A DNA stretch of 64,000 nucleotides from Bacilli bacterium (GTDB lineage Bacteria > Bacillota_I > Bacilli_A > RF39 > UBA660). Made by a program: the position numbers and the translations under genes. The DNA is taken from positions 424,852 to 488,851 of the forward strand of contig JAFYYX010000001.1 of the NCBI GenBank assembly GCA_017548925.1, given 5' to 3'. The notes below the pieces were generated by a model, which was not told the origin of the DNA, did not search any database, and worked only from the letters and a program-made list of their open reading frames with translations. Positions 474-53,715 of this stretch are shown piece by piece. How positions within the stretch are numbered: the first letter of the stretch is position 1; each line of letters starts with the position of its first letter.

Positions 474-1706
474 ATGAAAACTAAAAGAATTAAAACTAAG
501 AAAGAGAAACTAATATTACTTCTTGATATAGCCGTAATTATAGTATGTATATTAAGAAGTTTAGGTAACTATAAATTCTTTGCTGAAGGATTTGCTATGG
601 TAAAAGAATTTAGTGGTAGTAATCCTTTTATGTCATGTTTATTAATATTTTATATGATATGGTTATTTATTTTATATATAGCTATTAAAAACTTTATTAT
701 CCTTGCTATTTATTTAGCTTATAGAATTCCTAAAAAGAGAATTATAAAGCATAATACTAAATATGAAGTAATAGAAAATATTGATTATTTTAGAGAAAGA
801 TTTACTGGTATTACACCACCAGAAATAAGTTTATTAACAGATTTAGAAATTGAAACTAAAAAAGACTTAGCTGCATCTATATTAAATCTATATAATAAGA
901 AAGTAATATCATTTGATAGTAAAAATAAAATGGTAGTTAATAAAGATGTCAACACAGATCACTTAAAAGAAAGTGATAGTTATTTATATAGTTTACTACT
1001 TAATAACAACTTAGATATTATAAGTGTTAAAAAGTGGAAAGAAATATCAACTAAAGAAGCTATTGAAGATGGATATATTAAAGAAAAAAATAGAGAAAAA
1101 AGATATGGATTTAATGATTCTCTTTTAACTATTTTTAGATGGGTTGGAATAATGTTCTTAGCTGGTATTATTGGTGGAGGATATTTAGTTACTCCTCCAG
1201 GACAAAAACTAATGAAGAACATGGAAGAATATGAAACTATAACTAAAGATATTAAAGATCAAGATGTCATAGTTGATATGATTAAAGAAGATAAGGACTT
1301 TAGAAAATTAACATATGATTTATATGTTGGATCTATTCCCGTATGTTTAGTTGGTACTTTTGCTGTTATAGCTTTATTTGCATTATTCTCAATGCCTTTC
1401 TACCTAAGAGCAAGAAAGATAACATACTTCTTTGTTGATGCTAATGATAAATATGAACGAACTCCTGAAGGAAAAATTTTAGTAGAACAAATTGTTGGTA
1501 TGAAAAACTTTATTCATGACTTTAGTAATTTATCACAAAGTGAGAAAGAAGAAGTTGTTTTATGGAATGACTTTATCATCTATGCAATACTTCTTGAAGA
1601 AAATGAAAAAATCATTCATGAAATACTTAAGATTAAAAAGATGGATGTTAACATCTTAGATAATGTTAATACTCAAGTAATTGATTTAAGTAATAATAAA
1701 GACTAG
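474..1706 (+). CDS. DUF2207-like membrane protein
   Basis: A 410-residue membrane protein with good spacing from GGTGAT to the ATG. Hydrophobic segments lie near residues 14-34, 50-75, 218-240 and 285-310. Between the second and third is a soluble part with PPEISLLTD followed by a DLAASILNLYNKKVI helix. Near the C-terminus is a W-x-x-F-I-x-Y-A-I-L motif. These match the C-terminal half of the DUF2207 (YciQ-type) predicted membrane proteins, where a P-x-E-x-x-x-L winged-helix-like part sits between membrane helices and a WxxYLxYA motif follows. The usual N-terminal beta domain and signal peptide are missing. The function of the family is unknown to me. Confidence 0.6.
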   Translation: MKTKRIKTKKEKLILLLDIAVIIVCILRSLGNYKFFAEGFAMVKEFSGSNPFMSCLLIFYMIWLFILYIAIKNFIILAIYLAYRIPKKRIIKHNTKYEVIENIDYFRERFTGITPPEISLLTDLEIETKKDLAASILNLYNKKVISFDSKNKMVVNKDVNTDHLKESDSYLYSLLLNNNLDIISVKKWKEISTKEAIEDGYIKEKNREKRYGFNDSLLTIFRWVGIMFLAGIIGGGYLVTPPGQKLMKNMEEYETITKDIKDQDVIVDMIKEDKDFRKLTYDLYVGSIPVCLVGTFAVIALFALFSMPFYLRARKITYFFVDANDKYERTPEGKILVEQIVGMKNFIHDFSNLSQSEKEEVVLWNDFIIYAILLEENEKIIHEILKIKKMDVNILDNVNTQVIDLSNNKD

Positions 1707-1723
1707 ATAATTCTAGTCTTTTT
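1698..1723 (+). terminator. Rho-independent terminator
   Basis: GACTAGA and TCTAGTC form a 7-bp stem followed by TTTTT. It ends the DUF2207-like gene and lies just upstream of a repeated promoter motif. Confidence 0.8.
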
Positions 1724-1729
1724 ATTTGC

Positions 1730-1773
1730 TCTACAAATCATAGAGACGAAGTATATACAAATCATGCTATATT
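1730..1773 (+). promoter_or_regulatory. Repeated promoter element TCTA-N7-TAGA plus extended -10
   Basis: The 15-base element TCTACAAATCATAGA (an imperfect dyad, TCTA and TAGA arms) is followed 23 bases later by TGC-TATATT, an extended -10 at 1765-1773. The same arrangement recurs at 19011, 48803 and 53239 with the same spacing to within one base. No -35 consensus is present. The element is centred near -42 of the predicted start site, the usual place for a class II activator. Confidence 0.6.
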
Positions 1774-1808: not shown

Positions 1809-2402
1809 ATGACCAGAGAAGAAGAAATATTATTAAATGAATTAAATCGTAAAAAAGAGTATGAGGCTAGATGTTCCGAATATCTATATGATATTAGTTC
1901 ATATTTTCGAATTTTACTTGGAAATGTTGAATTATTTGAAAATACTGTTGAAGGTGAAGAAAGCTCACTTGATTATAGTCCTGCACATTTAAAAGTTATA
2001 AGAATAAAAGGAAAATTCAATATTGAAGAAGACGAATTTAATGGTAATATTTATTGTTGTTTATTTGAAAACGATGGATATTATCGCATCTATAGAACCA
2101 AAGACATTTATGTTGAGTATAATGATAAATGTTATAACATTGATATAGAATGGGAAAATTTAGAATATAATTCTAGTAATTATAATTTACTTTGTGATGT
2201 TTATGAATGCGATAAGAATATATTTAAATTAAGTCATGGTAATATAATAGCTTACAATAATAACTATCATGAGAATCAAAAAATCATTAATATGTTGCAT
2301 CGAGAAAGATTTGAATTAACACTTAATTATAATACGAATATAATAAGTGAAGTAATAAGTAGAATAAGAAAAAAAGATAAAACTAGAACTCATAAATCAT
2401 AA
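1809..2402 (+). CDS. Hypothetical protein under the TCTA-N7-TAGA promoter
   Basis: A 197-residue soluble protein with a strong ribosome binding site (GTAGGAGGG) before the ATG. It begins with a charged helix (TREEEILLNELNRKKEYEA), continues with mixed alpha/beta sequence rich in Tyr, Asn and Glu, and ends in a basic tail, RIRKKDKTRTHKS. There is no signal peptide, membrane segment or motif I recognise. It is a single-gene unit with its own repeated promoter element and its own terminator. The promoter element and basic tail link it to the genes at 19075, 48877 and 53305, but I see no clear sequence similarity among the four. Confidence 0.6.
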   Translation: MTREEEILLNELNRKKEYEARCSEYLYDISSYFRILLGNVELFENTVEGEESSLDYSPAHLKVIRIKGKFNIEEDEFNGNIYCCLFENDGYYRIYRTKDIYVEYNDKCYNIDIEWENLEYNSSNYNLLCDVYECDKNIFKLSHGNIIAYNNNYHENQKIINMLHRERFELTLNYNTNIISEVISRIRKKDKTRTHKS

Positions 2403-10408: not shown

Positions 10409-12814
10409 ATGAAAGAAAAAGAATATAAATATGATGCCTTTATTAGTTATAGACATTGTGACTTAGATAAATATGTTGCTGAAAACTTACATAAAGTTTT
10501 AGAAACATATGAACTACCTAAAAACATAAAAGAAAAACTAGGTATAACTGGTAGAACTATTAAAAGAGTATTTAGAGATCAAGATGAACTTCCACTATCT
10601 AGTAATCTAGAAGATCCTATAGTAGAAGCTTTAAAAGAATCTAAATATTTAATTGTTATTTGTTCACCAAGATTAAAAGAATCTATGTGGTGTAAAAAAG
10701 AAATAGAGACTTTTAAAAAATTAAGAGGTAGAAAAAATATCTTTTGTGTTTTAATTGAAGGTGAACCAAAAGATTCATTCCCAGAAGAAATATGTTTCGA
10801 TGAAATTGAAACTATAGATAAAAACGGTAAAAAGAAAATTGAAAAGAAACCAGTTGAACCCCTTGCTGCTGATGTAAGAGGAGAAACTAAAAAAGAGGTT
10901 TTAAAGAAAATCAAAGAAGAAAAATTAAGATTAATTGCTCCAATGTATAATCTTGATTATGATGATTTAAAACAAAGACATAAATTAAGAAAAATGAGAA
11001 GAATGTTTATAACATCAGCTTGTGTATCAGCATTCTGTATTTTATTTACAATCTACTCATTATTAATGTTCTTAAAAATATATCATCAACAAAAAACTTT
11101 AAAAACTCATCAAGCTTTATCTTTATCAGAAGATGCTATGAGATATATGAAAGTTGATAGTAAACATAGTGCTGTTAAATCAGCTTATGAAGCATTAACT
11201 AAATTTAATGGTGTTAAAATGCCATATACACCTGAAGCTGAATATGCTTTATCAGAAAGTTTAGGTGTATATAATGCTGGTCTTTCATATAAAGCTATGG
11301 ATGAAGTTAAAACTAAAGGTGTAATTGATTATATTAAATCATCATATGATGATAACTATGCTTTATCTTTTGATGAATCTGAAGAATTAGTTTTATGGGA
11401 TATAAATAAACTTAAAAAAATAAAAACTTATAGTGACTTAAATGCCTTTGCAATGACTAAAGATCAATTTACTTTTATAGGTAATGATAAACTTGCTTAT
11501 ATAAATAAAATAGGTAATGTTATTATTGCATCTACAAAAAATGGTAAGGTTCTAAAAGAAATAAAAAAAGACAATTATGGGTATATGTCTGTTAAAAGTA
11601 ATGAAGAAGGAAAATATTTAATAATAAATGATTCTCCTAAACTATATTTATATGATGCTGAAACATATAAAAATATAGCAACATATTCATCTAAAGAAAA
11701 AATAGCTAAAGAAATCTTTACTACTTTTGATGGATCTAAAATCTTTATTGGTACATCCAAAAATAGTGCTGATCCATTTAAAGAAGATAACGTGACAGTT
11801 CATGTACTTAACTCTAAAGATTTAAATGAAATGGATTCATTTGAACTTGAAGCAAGATATTTAAATGCATTAGTTGAAAAGAATAATAATGTTTATATTC
11901 TATCTAACCAATCTGTTGGCAATGATTATCATGCATTAGTAACATCTTATAATGTTAAAAATAATAAAGTTAATTGGACTAAGAAATTTAATAAAGACTG
12001 GGGAGAATACATCCAAACAAGTTTAGCTGAAGGTACTCATAATATAGCTTTTGCATCTGGTAATGTAGTAACAGTTATGGATGATTCTGATGGAAGCGTT
12101 ATTAAAAAATATTCATTAACAAGTGATGTAATTGATATTTATGTATCAACTACAAATGATACTTATATTGTATTTACAGCAGATGGTACTGTACACTTTG
12201 TAAGTGTTAAATATGAAGAAAGTATTGTTTATGGTAATTTATTTGAATTAAATTTAGATAACTATAAAGCTGTTATATTAAATAAAAAAGGATATTTGCT
12301 TATTGCTGAAAATGATAACAGAATTATATATTATGAAAAAGATAGCAATAAAAATTTAAAAGAAGAAAAAGTAAAACTTGATTATCCTAAAAATCAAAGT
12401 ATTGCTGGTAAAGATTTAGAAAAAATTAAAAAAGAATATGACTTAAAGAAAAAGAACTTAATTAAATATGCTATTTATGATGATAAAAAAACATTATTAT
12501 TTATAAGTTATACTGATTCATCACTTGGTATATATTCTGTTAAGGATAAAAAACTTATAAAGATGATTGATGATGTTACAGTTATTGAATACTACTTTGG
12601 AAAAGATAAAGAAAATAGAGTATATGTAGGTAACATAACTGATTCATACATCATTGATAAAGACTATAACAAAGTAGGTCATATTAATAGCTTAAATAAA
12701 GTAGATAAGAAAAATAATAAAATATATATTAAAGATGGAGATAATTCTTATTCACTTCCAATTTATTATTTAGATGATTTACTTAAAGAAGCAAAAGCTT
12801 ATTTAAATAAATAA
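10409..12814 (+). CDS. TIR-domain membrane protein with C-terminal repeat domain
   Basis: An 801-residue protein in three parts. Residues 6-130 are a TIR domain: YDAFISYRH opens it, RVFRDQDELP is the box 2 region, and the catalytic-type Glu98 sits in SMWCKKEIE, as in NAD-cleaving bacterial TIRs. Residues 199-222 are one membrane helix. Residues 270-795 are a beta-rich repeat region (LVLWDINKLKKI, LYLYDAETYKNI and similar blade-like units), probably one or two WD40/PQQ-like propellers. Such TIR-TM-propeller proteins occur in Firmicutes, with no role I can name. TIR NADases are often abortive-infection effectors, so defence is possible, but no partner defence gene is adjacent. Confidence 0.8.
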   Translation: MKEKEYKYDAFISYRHCDLDKYVAENLHKVLETYELPKNIKEKLGITGRTIKRVFRDQDELPLSSNLEDPIVEALKESKYLIVICSPRLKESMWCKKEIETFKKLRGRKNIFCVLIEGEPKDSFPEEICFDEIETIDKNGKKKIEKKPVEPLAADVRGETKKEVLKKIKEEKLRLIAPMYNLDYDDLKQRHKLRKMRRMFITSACVSAFCILFTIYSLLMFLKIYHQQKTLKTHQALSLSEDAMRYMKVDSKHSAVKSAYEALTKFNGVKMPYTPEAEYALSESLGVYNAGLSYKAMDEVKTKGVIDYIKSSYDDNYALSFDESEELVLWDINKLKKIKTYSDLNAFAMTKDQFTFIGNDKLAYINKIGNVIIASTKNGKVLKEIKKDNYGYMSVKSNEEGKYLIINDSPKLYLYDAETYKNIATYSSKEKIAKEIFTTFDGSKIFIGTSKNSADPFKEDNVTVHVLNSKDLNEMDSFELEARYLNALVEKNNNVYILSNQSVGNDYHALVTSYNVKNNKVNWTKKFNKDWGEYIQTSLAEGTHNIAFASGNVVTVMDDSDGSVIKKYSLTSDVIDIYVSTTNDTYIVFTADGTVHFVSVKYEESIVYGNLFELNLDNYKAVILNKKGYLLIAENDNRIIYYEKDSNKNLKEEKVKLDYPKNQSIAGKDLEKIKKEYDLKKKNLIKYAIYDDKKTLLFISYTDSSLGIYSVKDKKLIKMIDDVTVIEYYFGKDKENRVYVGNITDSYIIDKDYNKVGHINSLNKVDKKNNKIYIKDGDNSYSLPIYYLDDLLKEAKAYLNK

Positions 12815-18976: not shown

Positions 18977-19004
18977 AAAAGATTGGTAATAACTAGTCTT
19001 TTTT
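18977..19004 (+). terminator. Rho-independent terminator
   Basis: AGATTGGT and ACTAGTCT (8 pairs, two of them G-T) with an AATA loop, then six T. Confidence 0.7.
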
Positions 19005-19010
19005 CTTACG

Positions 19011-19053
19011 TCTACAAATTATAGAGACACAAGAAGAAAATATATGATAGATT
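19011..19053 (+). promoter_or_regulatory. Repeated promoter element, second copy
   Basis: TCTACAAATTATAGA at 19011-19025, then TGA-TAGATT (extended -10 at 19045-19053). The distance from element to -10 is the same as at 48803 and 53239 and one base shorter than at 1730. Confidence 0.6.
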
Positions 19054-19074: not shown

Positions 19075-19425
19075 ATGTGGTTATTTAGACATGAAGTTGC
19101 AGTAATTAATGCTTTATATGCTAGAGGTGAAGGAAGATTAAGTTATCAGGAGATAAATAAGTTTTCAAATATACTAGCATCCAAATGGTGTGAAAATCAT
19201 ATACCATTTATAGTAAGTGATGAAAATGATGGAGAGCATGATATAACATTTATGAATGTTAGATATATTCGTGCGATAGATGAAGTACTTTTATGTACTC
19301 CATTAACAGAAGAAATAGTAAATAAAGTAAACTCTATTTATGATGAAAAAATGCAAAAATTAATAGTTGAGGCAAGAGAAGAGTATTTAAAAAAGGAAAA
19401 TAATACAAGAAAAAAGTCTAAATAA
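19075..19425 (+). CDS. Small protein with LSYQE domain and basic tail
   Basis: A 116-residue protein. AGGAAGTGAG lies just upstream of the ATG at 19075; a GTG at 19066 is part of that site and is rejected as start. The segment from residue 22, LSYQEINKFSNILASKWC, followed by NHIPFIVSD, resembles both repeats of the protein at 51427 (LTYREMHEYGERLIEYAK then NIKIYLYLS), so I think they share a domain. It ends NNTRKKSK. It is driven by the second copy of the repeated promoter element. Function unknown. Confidence 0.6.
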   Translation: MWLFRHEVAVINALYARGEGRLSYQEINKFSNILASKWCENHIPFIVSDENDGEHDITFMNVRYIRAIDEVLLCTPLTEEIVNKVNSIYDEKMQKLIVEAREEYLKKENNTRKKSK

Positions 19426-47822: not shown

Positions 47823-48773
47823 ATGAAAGTAGTTGTTTTAGGTGGAGGAACTGGTTCATCAACTTTACTAAGAGGATTAAAATTATTTCCTCTTGATATA
47901 ACAGCAGTTATATCAGTTGCTGATGACGGAAGATCAACAGGAAAACTAAGAAAAGAATTTAATACTGTTGGTGTTGGTGATATAAGGCAAGTTATTACAG
48001 CTTTATCCGATACAGAACCTTTAATGGAAAAGTTAATGAATTATAGATTTAAAACGACTTCTGATTTAAATGGTCATGCAGTAGGTAATTTAATACTAAC
48101 TGCTCTTGCAAGTATGAATGGTAATTTATCAACAGGTATAGAGTCTTTATCTAAGGTATTTAATCTAAAAGGTAAAGTACTACCTTTAACAGAAGATTAT
48201 GTTACATTAAAAGCTAAAATGAAAGATAACTCAGTTATTGAAGGAGAACATAATATAACTGAATCTCATAAAGGTATTAAAAGTATTTCTTATAAAGAAA
48301 AAGTTAAAACAAATCCACTAGTAATTGATGCTATTAAAGATACCGATTTAATTATCCTTTCTATGGGTAGTTTATTTACATCTTTAATTCCTAATTTAAT
48401 ACCTAGTGATATTAAAAATGCTATTAAAGATTCTAAAGCTAAAATAATGTATGTATGTAATATGATGACACAACCTGGAGAAACAGATAACTTTAAAGCA
48501 TCTGATCATATTAAAGTACTAAATAAATATTTAAAAAGAAATGTTGATATTGTTATTGTAAATGATGGAGATATTAAACAAGAAGTAATAGATAAATATA
48601 AAGTAGAAGAACAAAAAGATCAAGTTATCTTTGATAAAGATAATTTAAAGAAACTTGGTGTTAAAATTATACATAATAATTATGTTGATACATCAACAGG
48701 AATGCTAAGACATAAAGTTGATAGACTTGCACTTGATATCTATGGTTATATGATTGATAACATTAAAAAATAA
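47823..48773 (+). CDS. YvcK/CofD-family gluconeogenesis factor
   Basis: A 316-residue protein of the YvcK type: VVVLGGGTGSSTLLRGLK at the start, VADDGRSTGKLRKEF at about 36-50, and IRQVITALSD and NGHAVGNLILTAL following. YvcK binds UDP-sugars and supports growth on gluconeogenic carbon sources and cell-wall synthesis in Bacillus. The usual neighbours rapZ and whiA are not here. Length is full. Confidence 0.92.
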   Translation: MKVVVLGGGTGSSTLLRGLKLFPLDITAVISVADDGRSTGKLRKEFNTVGVGDIRQVITALSDTEPLMEKLMNYRFKTTSDLNGHAVGNLILTALASMNGNLSTGIESLSKVFNLKGKVLPLTEDYVTLKAKMKDNSVIEGEHNITESHKGIKSISYKEKVKTNPLVIDAIKDTDLIILSMGSLFTSLIPNLIPSDIKNAIKDSKAKIMYVCNMMTQPGETDNFKASDHIKVLNKYLKRNVDIVIVNDGDIKQEVIDKYKVEEQKDQVIFDKDNLKKLGVKIIHNNYVDTSTGMLRHKVDRLALDIYGYMIDNIKK

Positions 48774-48800
48774 GGTGATAAAAAATCACCTTATTTTTTT
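48768..48800 (+). terminator. Rho-independent terminator
   Basis: AATAAGGTGAT and ATCACCTTATT form an 11-bp stem overlapping the stop, followed by seven T. Confidence 0.9.
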
Positions 48801-48802
48801 AC

Positions 48803-48845
48803 TCTACAAATCATAGATACAAGCAAAAATTAACTATGTTAATCT
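48803..48845 (+). promoter_or_regulatory. Repeated promoter element, third copy
   Basis: TCTACAAATCATAGA at 48803-48817, then TGT-TAATCT (extended -10 at 48837-48845). It begins three bases after the T-tract of the YvcK terminator. Confidence 0.6.
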
Positions 48846-48865: not shown

Positions 48866-48880
48866 ATGTATCTATTATGA
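48866..48880 (+). CDS. Four-codon leader ORF coupled to the next gene
   Basis: AAGGGAGG is followed after 4 bases by ATG at 48866, encoding M-Y-L-L and then TGA at 48878. That TGA overlaps the ATG (48877) of the next gene as ATGA. The next gene itself has no ribosome binding site at proper distance (15 bases), so translation may re-initiate from this mini-ORF. Alternatively an ATT start at 48874 is used. Confidence 0.45.
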   Translation: MYLL

Positions 48881-49263
48881 GACAAGTTAATAATCATGAT
48901 TCTTGTGACCATTTCTTTATTAAATGTTTTGATGATTATGATTGGTATGAAGGAACTCATTGTTTTTGTTACGGATGTATAAAATGTAAACTTTGTACTG
49001 GTGGACCATTTTATGAAAGCTATATGGCAAATTATTTTACATTTGAATCAAGTTTAAAGTATTGGTGGTCTAAATTAGAATTTAGTTATAGTTCTTATGA
49101 AATAAGTTTTGGTAGAGCAATTCACTTATATGAACAAATATCTGCTGAAAAACCAAATATTTCAAATAAGGAATTATATGAAATATTAAAAGTTAAATCT
49201 GAAGAATATATGAAATTAGATACCGAACCAAAAAAAGATGAAATAAGTAGAAAAAGAAGTTAA
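48877..49263 (+). CDS. CxH/CIKC putative zinc protein with SRKRS tail
   Basis: A 128-residue protein. C-D-H (10-12) and C-I-K-C (34-37) could hold zinc; the same pair of motifs is in the proteins at 49279 and 50468. More cysteines surround them (CFCYGC, KCKLC). An Ile/Leu helical segment (AIHLYEQISAEKPNISNKELYEILKVK) is clearly shared with the 49279 protein (VYDIYQKVIKLNPKISNRDFEKILKEK). It ends DEISRKRS. Translation is probably coupled to the four-codon leader. Function unknown; a nucleic-acid or scaffold role is only a guess. Confidence 0.6.
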   Translation: MRQVNNHDSCDHFFIKCFDDYDWYEGTHCFCYGCIKCKLCTGGPFYESYMANYFTFESSLKYWWSKLEFSYSSYEISFGRAIHLYEQISAEKPNISNKELYEILKVKSEEYMKLDTEPKKDEISRKRS

Positions 49264-49278
49264 AGGAGGAATTTAAAT

Positions 49279-49695
49279 ATGAAGTATTATTTGGATCCTG
49301 AATTTGAAAAAGGATATAGGGAGTATCGATTAAAAAAATATCAGGGATGTAAACACTTTCTTGTGTTTAACAAAACAATCGATAATAATGGACGTTTAGA
49401 TAATTGTTATGTATGTATTAAATGCGAAATTAATGAGATATTTAAATATTTTCCCTATAGTGAATACGATAATTTATATATGATTGATTACTTAAGAGAA
49501 ACAAATGGTGTATTACCTGGGTTTAGATCAAAAACTGATTTAAACCCTTATCAAGTGTATGATATTTATCAAAAGGTAATAAAACTAAATCCAAAAATAT
49601 CAAATAGAGATTTTGAAAAAATATTAAAAGAAAAGGAGAAAGAATTGTATAAATCAGGAATATCAAGAAGTAGATCAAATATGTTTTATATGTAA
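49279..49695 (+). CDS. CxH/CIKC putative zinc protein with SRSRS tail
   Basis: A 138-residue protein 15 bases after its paralogue, with AAAGGAGG before the ATG. C-K-H (24-26) and C-I-K-C (46-49) are the putative zinc ligands. The helical P-x-I-S-N segment follows near residue 106. The end reads SGISRSRSNMFYM, so the S-R-S-R-S lies eight residues from the terminus. It is in the same operon as the protein at 48877. Confidence 0.6.
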   Translation: MKYYLDPEFEKGYREYRLKKYQGCKHFLVFNKTIDNNGRLDNCYVCIKCEINEIFKYFPYSEYDNLYMIDYLRETNGVLPGFRSKTDLNPYQVYDIYQKVIKLNPKISNRDFEKILKEKEKELYKSGISRSRSNMFYM

Positions 49696-49740: not shown

Positions 49741-50463
49741 ATGTCAATTGGAGATAATATAAAAAAGTTAAGAATTCAAAATAAATTAACCCAAGCAGAA
49801 CTTGGAGAAATGTTATATGTTTCAGATAAAACAATATCAAGTTGGGAAAGTAATAGAACATACCCAGATATTGAAGCATTAGCAGACTTATGTGGTGCAT
49901 TAAATACTAACATACTATTTTTAACTAATGGTTCAAATAAAACTGAAACAGAACTAGAAATTAAAATTAGAGTTACTGAAGAAGAACAAAAAAGAATCTT
50001 TGACATTATTAAAAAAGATGGAAAACTTTTAAGAGAAGAAGAACAAAAAGCCACTTATTTTAAATCTACTCTAAGAGATATGAATAACGAATGGCTTCGT
50101 ATTAGAAGAGAAGATAAACACATTGTTTTAAACTATAAAAAGAAAACAGATGGTGTTGTTAAAGAATATGAAGTAAATATTGATAATGAAGAAAATTTAA
50201 AAAAGATATTTTCTTACTTAGATTTTAAAGAAGTAGGTAATGTAAATAAATATAGAGTTGCTTACCTTTATAAAGATAAATATGAAGTATCTTTTGATGA
50301 TGTTGAAGATTTAGGTTTATTTATTGAATTTGAACTTAAAAAATATGATAAAGACTATCTAAATGAATATGAAGACTTAATAAAACTTTTATATGAACTT
50401 AATATAAATATAAATGATATAGAAAAACGAAGATATCCTGAAATGATTATGCAAGAAAATTAA
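49741..50463 (+). CDS. XRE-type HTH fused to a CYTH domain
   Basis: A 240-residue fusion. Residues 1-62 are an XRE helix-turn-helix (SIGDNIKKLRIQNKLTQAELG, DKTISSWESNRTYPD). Residues 66-230 match the CYTH/triphosphate tunnel fold: ELEIKIRV (E-x-E-x-K), WLRIRRED, VLNYKKKT, VKEYEVNI, KYEVSFDDVEDLGLFIEFEL. CYTH proteins act on triphosphates (thiamine triphosphate, inorganic polyphosphate) or make cyclic AMP. A DNA-binding CYTH protein could sense a polyphosphate ligand. AGGAGG site; a TGGTAAAAT -10 lies upstream, so it may have its own promoter. Confidence 0.85.
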   Translation: MSIGDNIKKLRIQNKLTQAELGEMLYVSDKTISSWESNRTYPDIEALADLCGALNTNILFLTNGSNKTETELEIKIRVTEEEQKRIFDIIKKDGKLLREEEQKATYFKSTLRDMNNEWLRIRREDKHIVLNYKKKTDGVVKEYEVNIDNEENLKKIFSYLDFKEVGNVNKYRVAYLYKDKYEVSFDDVEDLGLFIEFELKKYDKDYLNEYEDLIKLLYELNININDIEKRRYPEMIMQEN

Positions 50464-50467
50464 AAAG

Positions 50468-51427
50468 ATGGAATATAACAAATATACAGGTTTAAAATAT
50501 ATTATACCTACAATACATTTAATAATGATTGATAATAATTTTATTATGAGAGAAATATCAGTTTCTGCTGTAAAAGATCTAATTGATGTTTTTAATAAAT
50601 GCTCTAAAAAACTAGGAACTGATGTTGAAGCTAGTTTTGATAGAGATGATTTTGATGATAGATTTATTCAAGATTATGAACTTGATAGGGATGAAAAAAA
50701 TGTAGTTATTAAAGATTTATCAAGAAAAAGATGGTATATAAATCATATGTACTCACCAATGTTTACAGTGTATGATAATATCCTAAAAGATGAAGATTTT
50801 ATAACTGAAGCTAGAAAAATTGTTGATCGAGAAAGAAAAAGACAAAGATATGAAGTTCTAAAACAAAAATGGATAGATTCATCAAAGAGAATCCATTTTT
50901 TAGAAGAAGAAATTAAAAAATATAAAGGTAATGAAAAAAGAGTAGAATATCTTGAAAAAGAATTAGAAAAAAGAAAAGAAGAAAATAGTATTAATTTTTT
51001 TAAACAAGCAAGATTAGGTTATGAATCATGTAATCATGTGTTAGTTGAAACTATAGAAAAAGGTAGTGGAATAAAAATAAATCAAAATCCTGATTTTCAC
51101 AGACCTAGATTTGAATATAGATGCATTAAATGTGGACTATCTAATGAGGTATATTTAAGTGGTGATAAACACTTTTATGGACCACTTGGAGAAATCATGT
51201 GGGAACTAACTGATGATACAAGTGAATTTCATAAATTAACATATAGTGAATTTAATAATGCTTATGTATTAAGTGAACCTAACGTTGCAGAAGAAATATA
51301 TAAAGAAATGACATTACGTTATCCATATTCAGCATTATATGAATCAAACCTTAGTGTAATTAATGACTTAAGAGAAGAAGTAGAAAAAAGAGAAAAAGGT
51401 TCATTGAGAATAAGGAGAGCAAATTAA
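50468..51427 (+). CDS. Coiled-coil protein with CxH/CIKC domain and RIRRAN tail
   Basis: A 319-residue protein four bases after the XRE-CYTH gene. An N-terminal mixed domain (1-115) is followed by a coiled coil (about 118-180, rich in E/K/R), then the CxH/CIKC domain: C-N-H (188-190) and C-I-K-C (219-222). A helical region and a short basic end, GSLRIRRAN, close the protein. The C-terminal half is the same domain as in the two proteins at 48877 and 49279. The binding site is poor, so coupling to the upstream gene is likely. Confidence 0.6.
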   Translation: MEYNKYTGLKYIIPTIHLIMIDNNFIMREISVSAVKDLIDVFNKCSKKLGTDVEASFDRDDFDDRFIQDYELDRDEKNVVIKDLSRKRWYINHMYSPMFTVYDNILKDEDFITEARKIVDRERKRQRYEVLKQKWIDSSKRIHFLEEEIKKYKGNEKRVEYLEKELEKRKEENSINFFKQARLGYESCNHVLVETIEKGSGIKINQNPDFHRPRFEYRCIKCGLSNEVYLSGDKHFYGPLGEIMWELTDDTSEFHKLTYSEFNNAYVLSEPNVAEEIYKEMTLRYPYSALYESNLSVINDLREEVEKREKGSLRIRRAN

Positions 51428-52326
51428 TGGAAGGCTATTTTTTATGTTTAGATGATTTATTTTACTATATGCTTAATACTTTAAAAGAAAAAAATATTAC
51501 TCCTGATAAATTAACATACAGGGAAATGCATGAATATGGAGAAAGACTGATTGAATATGCAAAAACAAAAAATATAAAGATTTATTTATATTTAAGTAGA
51601 GAGTTAACATCAAAATGTTTATATGGTCATCAAAACTATATAAAAGAAGATTTAATGTATTCAGGTTACAAAGGTTTAAAACTTATAAAAGAATGTTCAC
51701 AAGAAGAACTTGAAGAAGAATTTAGAACTTATATGCCTCTTGAGGTATTGCTTCTTACTGAAGAAAATGAATTTGCGGAACAAATAGCAAATAAATATAA
51801 AAAAGAGCATGGCATGATTGAATCCAAAGATGAATACATCTATTACTCTAAAAATTATTACGTAACTTTAGCAGATTTATTTTTTAATATGCTTATTACG
51901 TTAAAAGAAGCAGGGATTAATCCTAATAGTTTAACTTATAAAGAATGTGAAGATTATGGAGAAATAATTAAAGAATTTGCAAAAAAGAATAATATTAACA
52001 TATGTTTAGTTTTAAGTAGGAAAGATACAAATGACTTTTTTAATGATTATTATGAATATGTTATAGATAATAATGATAATGAAATAAAATTAAAAAAAGA
52101 TGTTGATGTGATTGAATTAATCAACCTATGTCGAGGATATTTATCACTTGATATACTGATGATAATACTAAATAAAGAGTTAGAAAAAAAAGTTGTTTTC
52201 AAATATGATAGTGAACACAATATAGATAATGTAATGCCAGATTTTAATATTATACCCAAAAAATGTAACAAAAAGTTTTATACCGATGAATATGGCATTA
52301 TAAGAGAAAGGAAAAAACTAGATTAA
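51427..52326 (+). CDS. Protein with tandem LTYxE domains
   Basis: A 299-residue protein that is a clear internal duplication: LDDLFYYMLNTLK at 8-20 and LADLFFNMLITLK at 148-160, then LTYREMHEYGERL and LTYKECEDYGEII at the same offset (140 residues), then NIKIYLYLS and NINICLVLS. The single domain is also in the protein at 19075. It ends RERKKLD. The ATG overlaps the preceding stop by one base. It ends the operon. I know no family for it. Confidence 0.65.
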   Translation: MEGYFLCLDDLFYYMLNTLKEKNITPDKLTYREMHEYGERLIEYAKTKNIKIYLYLSRELTSKCLYGHQNYIKEDLMYSGYKGLKLIKECSQEELEEEFRTYMPLEVLLLTEENEFAEQIANKYKKEHGMIESKDEYIYYSKNYYVTLADLFFNMLITLKEAGINPNSLTYKECEDYGEIIKEFAKKNNINICLVLSRKDTNDFFNDYYEYVIDNNDNEIKLKKDVDVIELINLCRGYLSLDILMIILNKELEKKVVFKYDSEHNIDNVMPDFNIIPKKCNKKFYTDEYGIIRERKKLD

Positions 52327-52401: not shown

Positions 52402-53205
52402 ATGAAGCAAATAGATGTACATGATATTATTAATAAATTTATTAAAGAAATGGATTATGAAAATAATGAACATGTATTAGGCGTATACTTTTATGGAAGC
52501 TATCAACTTGGTTGTGCAAATGAAAAATCAGATATTGACTTACATGTTATTTTTGATGATTCTAATCCAAAACATATAATAAGAGGTAATCATTTTATTG
52601 ATGGTAAAAGAATTGAATACTTTGAAAAACCGTTAAAAGAAATGTACCTAACTATAATGCTTGATTTTAAAAATCAAAGTAATGCTTTACTTGCAATTGT
52701 AGGTAACTCAGAAATTATTATGGATAAAACAGGTGAGTTATACGAACTATCAACTTATGCAAAAGAAGTATTTGAGCATCCACTACCAAAACTAACAGAA
52801 AATGATGCCAAAGAATATGTTTCAATATTAAATAATCGTATGGAAAAACTTGATACTCTTGCTCATAATGGTGATTTAACTTTCTATCACTTATATCATT
52901 TAACAATTGAAAAAATAAGAAAATTTTATCACCGCGTTATTGGATCTCCAGAAATTCAAACCACTAAAGTAATACGTATTTATACTGACGATTATTATAG
53001 AGAATTAATTAATAAAGGTGTAATGCCAGAACAAGAATTTATTGATATGTATATAGATGCTATTTGTGATTCTAATAAAGATATGTTTATAAAATTAGAA
53101 AAAGCTAAAAAACTATATAGTTATGCAAAAAGAAGTATAGATCTTGATGAAAAAAGTAATTATAGAATACCAATTAGAAGTAGAAGTAATGAAATAAGAA
53201 GATAA
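52402..53205 (+). CDS. Nucleotidyltransferase-fold protein with basic tail
   Basis: A 267-residue protein. Residues about 22-50 have the NTase signature FYGSYQLGCANEKSDIDLHVI (G-S followed by D-x-D), the nucleotidyltransferase core as in aminoglycoside or MNT-type enzymes. The rest is a helical domain (LTFYHLYHLTIEKIRKFYHR) that fits a substrate-binding part. It ends IPIRSRSNEIRR. An extended -10, TGGTATATAAT, lies upstream at about 52362. Substrate unknown. Confidence 0.8.
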   Translation: MKQIDVHDIINKFIKEMDYENNEHVLGVYFYGSYQLGCANEKSDIDLHVIFDDSNPKHIIRGNHFIDGKRIEYFEKPLKEMYLTIMLDFKNQSNALLAIVGNSEIIMDKTGELYELSTYAKEVFEHPLPKLTENDAKEYVSILNNRMEKLDTLAHNGDLTFYHLYHLTIEKIRKFYHRVIGSPEIQTTKVIRIYTDDYYRELINKGVMPEQEFIDMYIDAICDSNKDMFIKLEKAKKLYSYAKRSIDLDEKSNYRIPIRSRSNEIRR

Positions 53206-53206
53206 T

Positions 53207-53234
53207 AAAAAACTAGATTTTATCTAGTTTTTTT
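53207..53234 (+). terminator. Rho-independent terminator
   Basis: AAAACTAGAT and ATCTAGTTTT with a TTT loop, then seven T. Confidence 0.9.
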
Positions 53235-53238
53235 ATTA

Positions 53239-53281
53239 TCTACAAATCATAGATACGAGCTTTTATATTTTCTGTTAGTAT
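53239..53281 (+). promoter_or_regulatory. Repeated promoter element, fourth copy
   Basis: TCTACAAATCATAGA at 53239-53253, then TGT-TAGTAT (extended -10 at 53273-53281). Same spacing as the 19011 and 48803 copies; it follows the terminator T-tract within five bases. Confidence 0.6.
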
Positions 53282-53304: not shown

Positions 53305-53715
53305 ATGGAAAATGCAAAACCAGTAACTGTTACACAGTATGGACTTTTATGTTTAATTACCGCATCAATGTATATGCAAAATACTAATTTTATAATTGGA
53401 AGGAATGATTTAGAGCACAGACTTTATAATTATTATAAAGACGATAAATATAAAGTATTATTTGAAGATGTTGTAGCAAGAAAATATATTGATGATCTTC
53501 CATATGTTGATTTATCAGAAGGATTCATTAATGCTCTTGCTTGGGGATTACTTATAATGATTCAAGATTTTTCTCCTGAAACAAGATATATAATAAATAT
53601 AACTAATGATAAAGAAGCTCAAGAATTATTAAATAATTATCCATTAGAAATCCAAGGTTTAATTACTGACCTTGTTAAGGATTTAAGTGGAAAAGAGAGA
53701 AAAAGAGTAAGTTAA
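53305..53715 (+). CDS. Hypothetical protein with ERKRVS tail
   Basis: A 136-residue protein, mostly helical, with GGGAGAGTGAG before the ATG. PVTVTQYGLLCLITASMYM starts it; a middle segment has DLPYVDLSEGFINALAWGLLIM, somewhat hydrophobic but short for a membrane helix. It ends SGKERKRVS. It is driven by the fourth copy of the repeated promoter element. The terminator palindrome overlaps the basic tail codons. Family unknown. Confidence 0.6.
   Translation: MENAKPVTVTQYGLLCLITASMYMQNTNFIIGRNDLEHRLYNYYKDDKYKVLFEDVVARKYIDDLPYVDLSEGFINALAWGLLIMIQDFSPETRYIINITNDKEAQELLNNYPLEIQGLITDLVKDLSGKERKRVS

Follow-up and report, generated by a model that had tools for sequence, protein, structure and literature searches.

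Lambda CI activates PRM from an operator centred near −42, where it touches sigma region 4, and extended −10 promoters are able to fire without a −35 sequence. Among CYTH proteins, the class IV adenylate cyclases (CyaB) are marked by HFxxxxExExK and by a (W)xRxR that has lost its first arginine, and the thiamine triphosphatase-like members by W/YxRxR and ExE motifs (PMC8233210). In the 64,000-nucleotide stretch analysed here as a whole (the window), an HTH_3 domain of the CI type and a CYTH domain are fused in one predicted protein (49741-50463). We consider it quite likely that the repeated promoter element TCTA-N7-TAGA is the operator of this HTH_3-CYTH protein, whose dimer on the dyad would most likely activate in class II fashion, with a triphosphate ligand of the CYTH domain switching its activity, at its own operon and three more.

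The window is bacterial chromosome, carrying genes for DNA polymerase I (polA), topoisomerase I (topA), PPDK, trmD and MMPL. A prophage or jumbo-phage origin was rejected, given polA, topA, trmD and PPDK and no phage structural genes among the scanned proteins, and no relatives of the topoisomerase were found in viral contigs. Searches of the window for Rfam families and of the literature for the operator strings gave no match. The 801-aa product encoded at 10409-12814 of the window has a TIR domain at its N-terminus and weakly matches a beta-propeller model; a role in defence or signalling is possible. The genome (1,069,392 bases, 24% GC) is in three contigs, of which C3 is the main one (1,038,195 bases); C2, at 5,384 bases, is near the size of the phiX174 sequencing control, compared on size alone, and is possibly an assembly contaminant.

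An earlier note on this DNA had described a dyad-symmetric promoter element shared by four places. The pattern TCTACAAATYATAGAKAC, then N16-17, then TGnTAnnnT, does match at 1730, 19011, 48803 and 53239, always on the plus strand and always with 0 mismatches to TCTACAAATYATAGAKAC; shuffled windows gave 0.72 matches to TCTACAAATYATAGAKAC on average with 3 mismatches tolerated. A genome scan found these four exact copies of the 18-mer and none with one mismatch, matches with two or three mismatches being at chance level (the mismatch scan covered the first 1,013,700 bases of the main contig, and a separate scan the whole genome). The distance from TAGA to the extended −10 is constant to within one base (20, 19, 19 and 19 nt, in order of position). 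All four sites are intergenic, each is followed by a gene, and a strong predicted terminator hairpin lies directly 5′ of each, within about 11 bases (z −3.6 to −7.5; terminators and start codons are predictions). With the −10 hexamer set at −12 to −7, the dyad centre falls at −42, or −43 at one site; the right half-site is TAGA with A before it, and the dyad is imperfect. Chance similarity among promoter regions has in its favour an AT-rich genome in which three-mismatch matches do arise by chance, but four exact 18-base matches with zero at one mismatch, and conservation of the element across genera (below), make its probability practically negligible.

Coordinates of the candidate operators, predicted terminators and genes in the window
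Feature	Position	Strand	Description
Terminator hairpin 5′ of operator 1	1698..1721	+	predicted, z −5.6
Candidate operator 1	1730..1744	+	dyad TCTACAAATCATAGA; extended −10 TGCTATATT at 1765-1773; N20 between dyad and TG
Target gene 1	1809..2402	+	197 aa, no Pfam family, basic tail
Terminator hairpin 5′ of operator 2	18977..19002	+	predicted, z −3.6
Candidate operator 2	19011..19025	+	dyad TCTACAAATTATAGA; extended −10 TGATAGATT at 19045-19053; N19
Target gene 2	19075..19425	+	116 aa from ATG 19075 (GTG 19066 possible), no Pfam family, basic tail
Terminator hairpin 5′ of operator 3	48765..48799	+	predicted, z −7.5
Candidate operator 3	48803..48817	+	dyad TCTACAAATCATAGA; extended −10 TGTTAATCT at 48837-48845; N19; heads regulator operon
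First gene, regulator operon	48877..49263	+	128 aa, CxH...CxxC putative zinc-ribbon, basic tail
Second gene, regulator operon	49279..49695	+	138 aa, weak paralog of first (E 1e-4), CxH...CxxC motif
Regulator gene	49741..50463	+	240 aa; HTH_3 (CI-like, recognition helix VSDKTISSWE) fused to CYTH domain
Gene 3′ of regulator	50468..51427	+	319 aa, CxH...CxxCG motif toward C-terminus
51427 gene	51427..52326	+	299 aa, two repeats
Terminator hairpin 5′ of operator 4	53203..53238	+	predicted, z −4.8
Candidate operator 4 (originally noted site)	53239..53253	+	dyad TCTACAAATCATAGA; extended −10 TGTTAGTAT at 53273-53281; N19
Target gene 4	53305..53715	+	136 aa, no Pfam family, basic tail

The candidate regulator is the third gene behind the site at 48803. 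Both of its domains score well above the Pfam cut-offs (HTH_3, PF01381, 47.8 bits against 23; CYTH, PF01928, 66.4 bits against 23.2), the best PDB match of the HTH is the P22 c2 repressor, and no other XRE protein with a KTxSSWE helix occurs in the genome. Besides the HTH_3 score, membership of the XRE/HTH_3 family is indicated by a dyad at the gene's own promoter in orthologs (16 genomes, and two more before damaged copies). The genome's gene set holds only three CxH...CxxC proteins, the window genes at 48877, 49279 and 50468, and such putative zinc-ribbon proteins also stand near the regulator in G065, G179 and G199. The 51427 gene has a homolog in G065 (E 4e-10), immediately after the upstream member of an operator pair, and another in G001 (E 5e-13), immediately after the regulator gene. 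As read from these loci, the conserved associations of the regulator are the CxH...CxxC putative zinc-ribbon proteins and, in G065 and G001, the 51427 family. A family of about 180-220 aa (MKKSELI...), with no Pfam match, adjoins the HTH-CYTH gene in G179, G199, G205, G245 and G304. In four of these it directly follows the regulator gene on the same strand; in G179 it lies close by on the opposite strand. Its members may be another partner of the regulator. The interval that separates the regulator operon from operator 4 holds a nucleotidyltransferase gene (NTP_transf_2; 52402-53205), weakly matched by models of MntA-type antitoxins and of candidate defence proteins.

In a family sample of 386 genomes from 150 genera, many of them fragmented, HTH-CYTH orthologs occur in 22; outside the family, a class-wide search gave one match only, to the CYTH part. 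The regions upstream of the orthologs were read with the dyad alone required and no −10. In 16 genomes TCTAC-N5-RTAGA, or a form differing from it by one base, precedes the HTH-CYTH gene by 59-70 nt, and TGnTAnnnT follows after N19 or N20 at every one of these 16 sites; examples are TCTACAAATTGTAGA-N20-TGTTATAAT in G016 and TCTACAAAATGTAGA-N20-TGATACAAT in G106. The closest ortholog (57%), in G065, has two copies of the element upstream. The downstream copy leads an operon containing HTH-CYTH plus a CxH/CxxCG protein, arranged as in the window; the upstream copy heads the homolog of the 51427 gene. The HTH-CYTH loci of G205 and G001 are interrupted by contig ends, and in G384 the gene is disrupted and the sole site lies elsewhere, not before it. 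In most genomes the single site is the regulator's own promoter, with two sites in G065 and four in the window genome. Control of its own operon would be read as ancestral, and in the family as usually the only target.

The reverse test, in which all 386 genomes were searched for the dyad, N19-20 and TGnTAnnnT together, matched 30 genomes. HTH-CYTH is present in 20 of these, out of 22 genomes that have it, and absent from the other 10, out of 364 that lack it (Fisher p = 5e-24). Phylogenetic co-occurrence, one of the routes to the regulator put forward in the earlier note, gives HTH-CYTH by these figures. Two of the ten matches counted as lacking the gene precede its remnants, a truncated HTH-CYTH gene in G361 and a frameshifted HTH gene in G330. 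The others read in context fall within an ORF on either strand, clearly so in all but G331, and the hit in G393, its context unread, matches the coding hit of G328. Since the HTH-CYTH-less matches are mostly coding or before remnants, nearly every non-coding instance belongs to the regulator. In genomes of the same genus a loose pattern performed at chance level apart from one TCTACTAATAGTAGA before another XRE gene. At G004:C2:79835, in a genome of the same genus, TCTACTAATAGTAGATAC stands behind a terminator, with a −10 at equal distance, before a different XRE gene of 353 aa that encodes an HTH, a membrane segment and the helix VSNKSISKWE. Exact-pattern relatives in viral genomes were rejected, both matches lying in coding sequence; in other genome contigs there were five exact-pattern matches, single and in unrelated phyla, with contexts unread.

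The earlier note had left the choice between a dedicated activator and an alternative sigma factor. A sigma factor reading the element directly could draw on the eight Sigma70_r2 genes of the genome and on the look of the element, a −35-like plus a −10-like block. We nevertheless regard it as very improbable: over 386 genomes the element tracks HTH-CYTH and sits at that gene's own promoter, a 15-base dyad exceeds a sigma −35 box, the −10 is of the ordinary extended sigma-A type, and the four copies have no graded tail of weaker sites as a sigma regulon would. The dedicated DNA-binding regulator stands and the sigma factor falls. Two of the eight sigma-70 region 2 genes of this 1.07-Mb genome are adjacent, at C3:358242-359154, and may encode sporulation sigma factors. 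More improbable still is that the four copies are non-regulatory dispersed repeats or recombination sites, such as gene-cassette ends. They do all lie within 51.5 kb, on one strand, abutting terminators and before unrelated lineage-specific genes, but their similarity is confined to the dyad and −10, and this geometry is kept at one orthologous promoter in other genera.

The position of the dyad bears on how an HTH_3-CYTH regulator would act. Over 26 sites the dyad centre lies at −42 in 8 and at −43 in 18 relative to the predicted start site, and the −35 region matches its consensus at a mean of 2.2 of 6 positions, against 3.2 at other TATAAT promoters of the genome and 2.65 in shuffles. Some of the 26 were gathered by a pattern in which the −10 letters are prescribed; the 16 ortholog upstream sites form the unbiased subset. 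A site near −42, fixed spacing and a poor −35 make up class II activator geometry, as the earlier note had remarked of the window sites, where it saw no −35 consensus. This suggests that the regulator is a class II activator, as are lambda and P22 CI. Bound to the dyad at −42/−43 of an extended −10 promoter that has no −35, it would most likely touch sigma region 4 and so activate transcription, as CI does at PRM; we infer this contact because the distance from dyad to −10 is fixed and a −35 is absent.

The same regulator and operator could instead work by repression, the protein blocking the −35 region of extended −10 promoters until a CYTH ligand releases it. We consider this somewhat unlikely, though it deserves weighing. 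Autorepression is common, the XRE/CI relatives that share the helix and operators are presumed phage repressors, a site overlapping the −35 region could repress, and several ortholog promoters have the consensus extended −10 TGnTATAAT and could fire alone. On the other hand, the four window −10 hexamers are weak, the −35 scores below chance, the dyad stands 5′ of the core promoter and does not cover it, and a repressor has no need of the one-base constancy of spacing seen at 26 sites of many genera.

In the window species the same promoter module would also drive three further small-protein operons. The ORFs downstream of sites 1-4 encode 197, about 116-119, 128 and 136 aa, with 5-6 K/R among the last 12 residues, and it is true at all four sites, as the earlier note had it, that a small unknown protein with a basic tail follows. 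That description conceals the regulator within one of the operons, and the tail is a weak marker because 9% of all small proteins in the genome have one; with basic tails enriched genome-wide, a basic C-terminus was rejected as a mark of the regulon. At least 3 R in the last 12 residues are found in 40 of the 1022 proteins of the genome, against about 8 expected from internal stretches, and K+R of at least 5 in 8.6% of its proteins against 1.6% expected. We found neither homology among the four downstream proteins nor a Pfam family for any of them. Target gene 1 had no homologs in 60 relatives and was present among those only in its own species. For target gene 2, whose start at ATG 19075 was picked from a visible ribosome-binding site, the homolog search covered its own genome and the collected neighbourhoods. 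Target gene 4 has distant homologs in 7 of 60 relatives, and the operator is absent upstream of the two intact ones inspected (G003 and G017). For three of the four window targets no counterpart is conserved under the element in other species, and targets 1, 2 and 4 look species-specific. In the operon led by operator 3, a 4-codon ORF (48867-48881; ATG TAT CTA TTA TGA) follows a strong ribosome-binding site, and its stop codon shares bases with the start codon of the 128-aa gene (ATGA), an arrangement that suggests translational coupling.

Viral contigs were scanned with the ortholog alignment, and selection by the helix [ST]xKT[IV]SSWE gave 18 CI-like phage or prophage repressors. Operators of the form TCTA[CT]-N5-[GA]TAGA or CTAC-N5-GTAG lie upstream of every one of the 18, often in sets of two or three spaced about 30 bases apart, against a background of 1 match in 78 kb of surrounding sequence. 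The predicted DNA specificity for TCTA-N7-TAGA derives from the HTH class with the KTxSSWE helix, and in the window a dimer of the phage-CI-like HTH domain would bind the dyad. The specificity can then be given to the whole helix class, common to phage repressors. Because phage CI-type repressors with this helix have the same operators, the element is not entirely new; of the "new regulon" of the earlier note, the shared element remains, as four sites within 51.5 kb and not genome-wide. What had been an orphan motif becomes a defined candidate regulator-operator pair, in a group known here from genome sequence alone.

The CYTH domain, for its part, would be the sensing module of such a transcription factor. 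It keeps E71xE73xK75, R120, K133, K170, R172, D186 and E196 (window numbering); E71, E73 and K75 are each kept in 17-18 of 19 orthologs and R120 is invariant among them. The window protein has W118-L-R120-I-R122 and E196-F-E198, and in the orthologs' WxRxR the W is kept in 17 of 19 and the second R in 9 of 19, with glycine in ten. Assignment as a class IV adenylate cyclase was rejected, for no HF precedes ExExK and R120 is invariant, although the regulator nonetheless scores above the TIGR00318 cut-off. The triphosphate tunnel is thus retained and the ligand likely bears a triphosphate, and its binding in the CYTH tunnel would switch the regulator's activity. A rather more doubtful proposal, which we offer tentatively, is that this one-component regulator uses the tunnel to sense, and perhaps to hydrolyse, thiamine triphosphate or some other triphosphate, and that it was taken over from a phage repressor and came to occupy additional promoters in this species. 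To our knowledge no transcription factor is known for thiamine triphosphate or a like triphosphate signal, and a partial literature search found no paper describing an HTH-CYTH fusion; if the proposal is true, it would be a direct gene switch for such a signal.

The regulator can be set beside three described groups. The KT[IV]SSWE phage repressors (L231-L248) share its near-identical recognition helix and TCTA-N7-TAGA operators, but they match it in the HTH region only and are found in viral contigs, many with two or three tandem operators. The CYTH or triphosphate tunnel metalloenzymes (Saci_0718, PH1819, thiamine triphosphatase, CyaB) share PF01928, ExExK, LRxR, K, KxR, D and ExE; unlike theirs, its CYTH domain is joined to a DNA-binding domain, ten of 19 of its orthologs have lost the second arginine of WxRxR, and the HF motif of the class IV cyclases is absent. 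A lambda-type lysogeny switch does not describe the locus, which has one dyad per promoter and co-directional flanking genes in the window. With lambda or P22-type CI at PRM, the regulator has in common an HTH of the same family (HTH_3), a dyad operator centred near −42 and, as predicted, autoregulation; it differs in that a CYTH domain replaces the CI C-terminal or peptidase domain, that operators stand singly and not in tandem, that a divergent cro is absent, and that its location is chromosomal and kept through a bacterial family.
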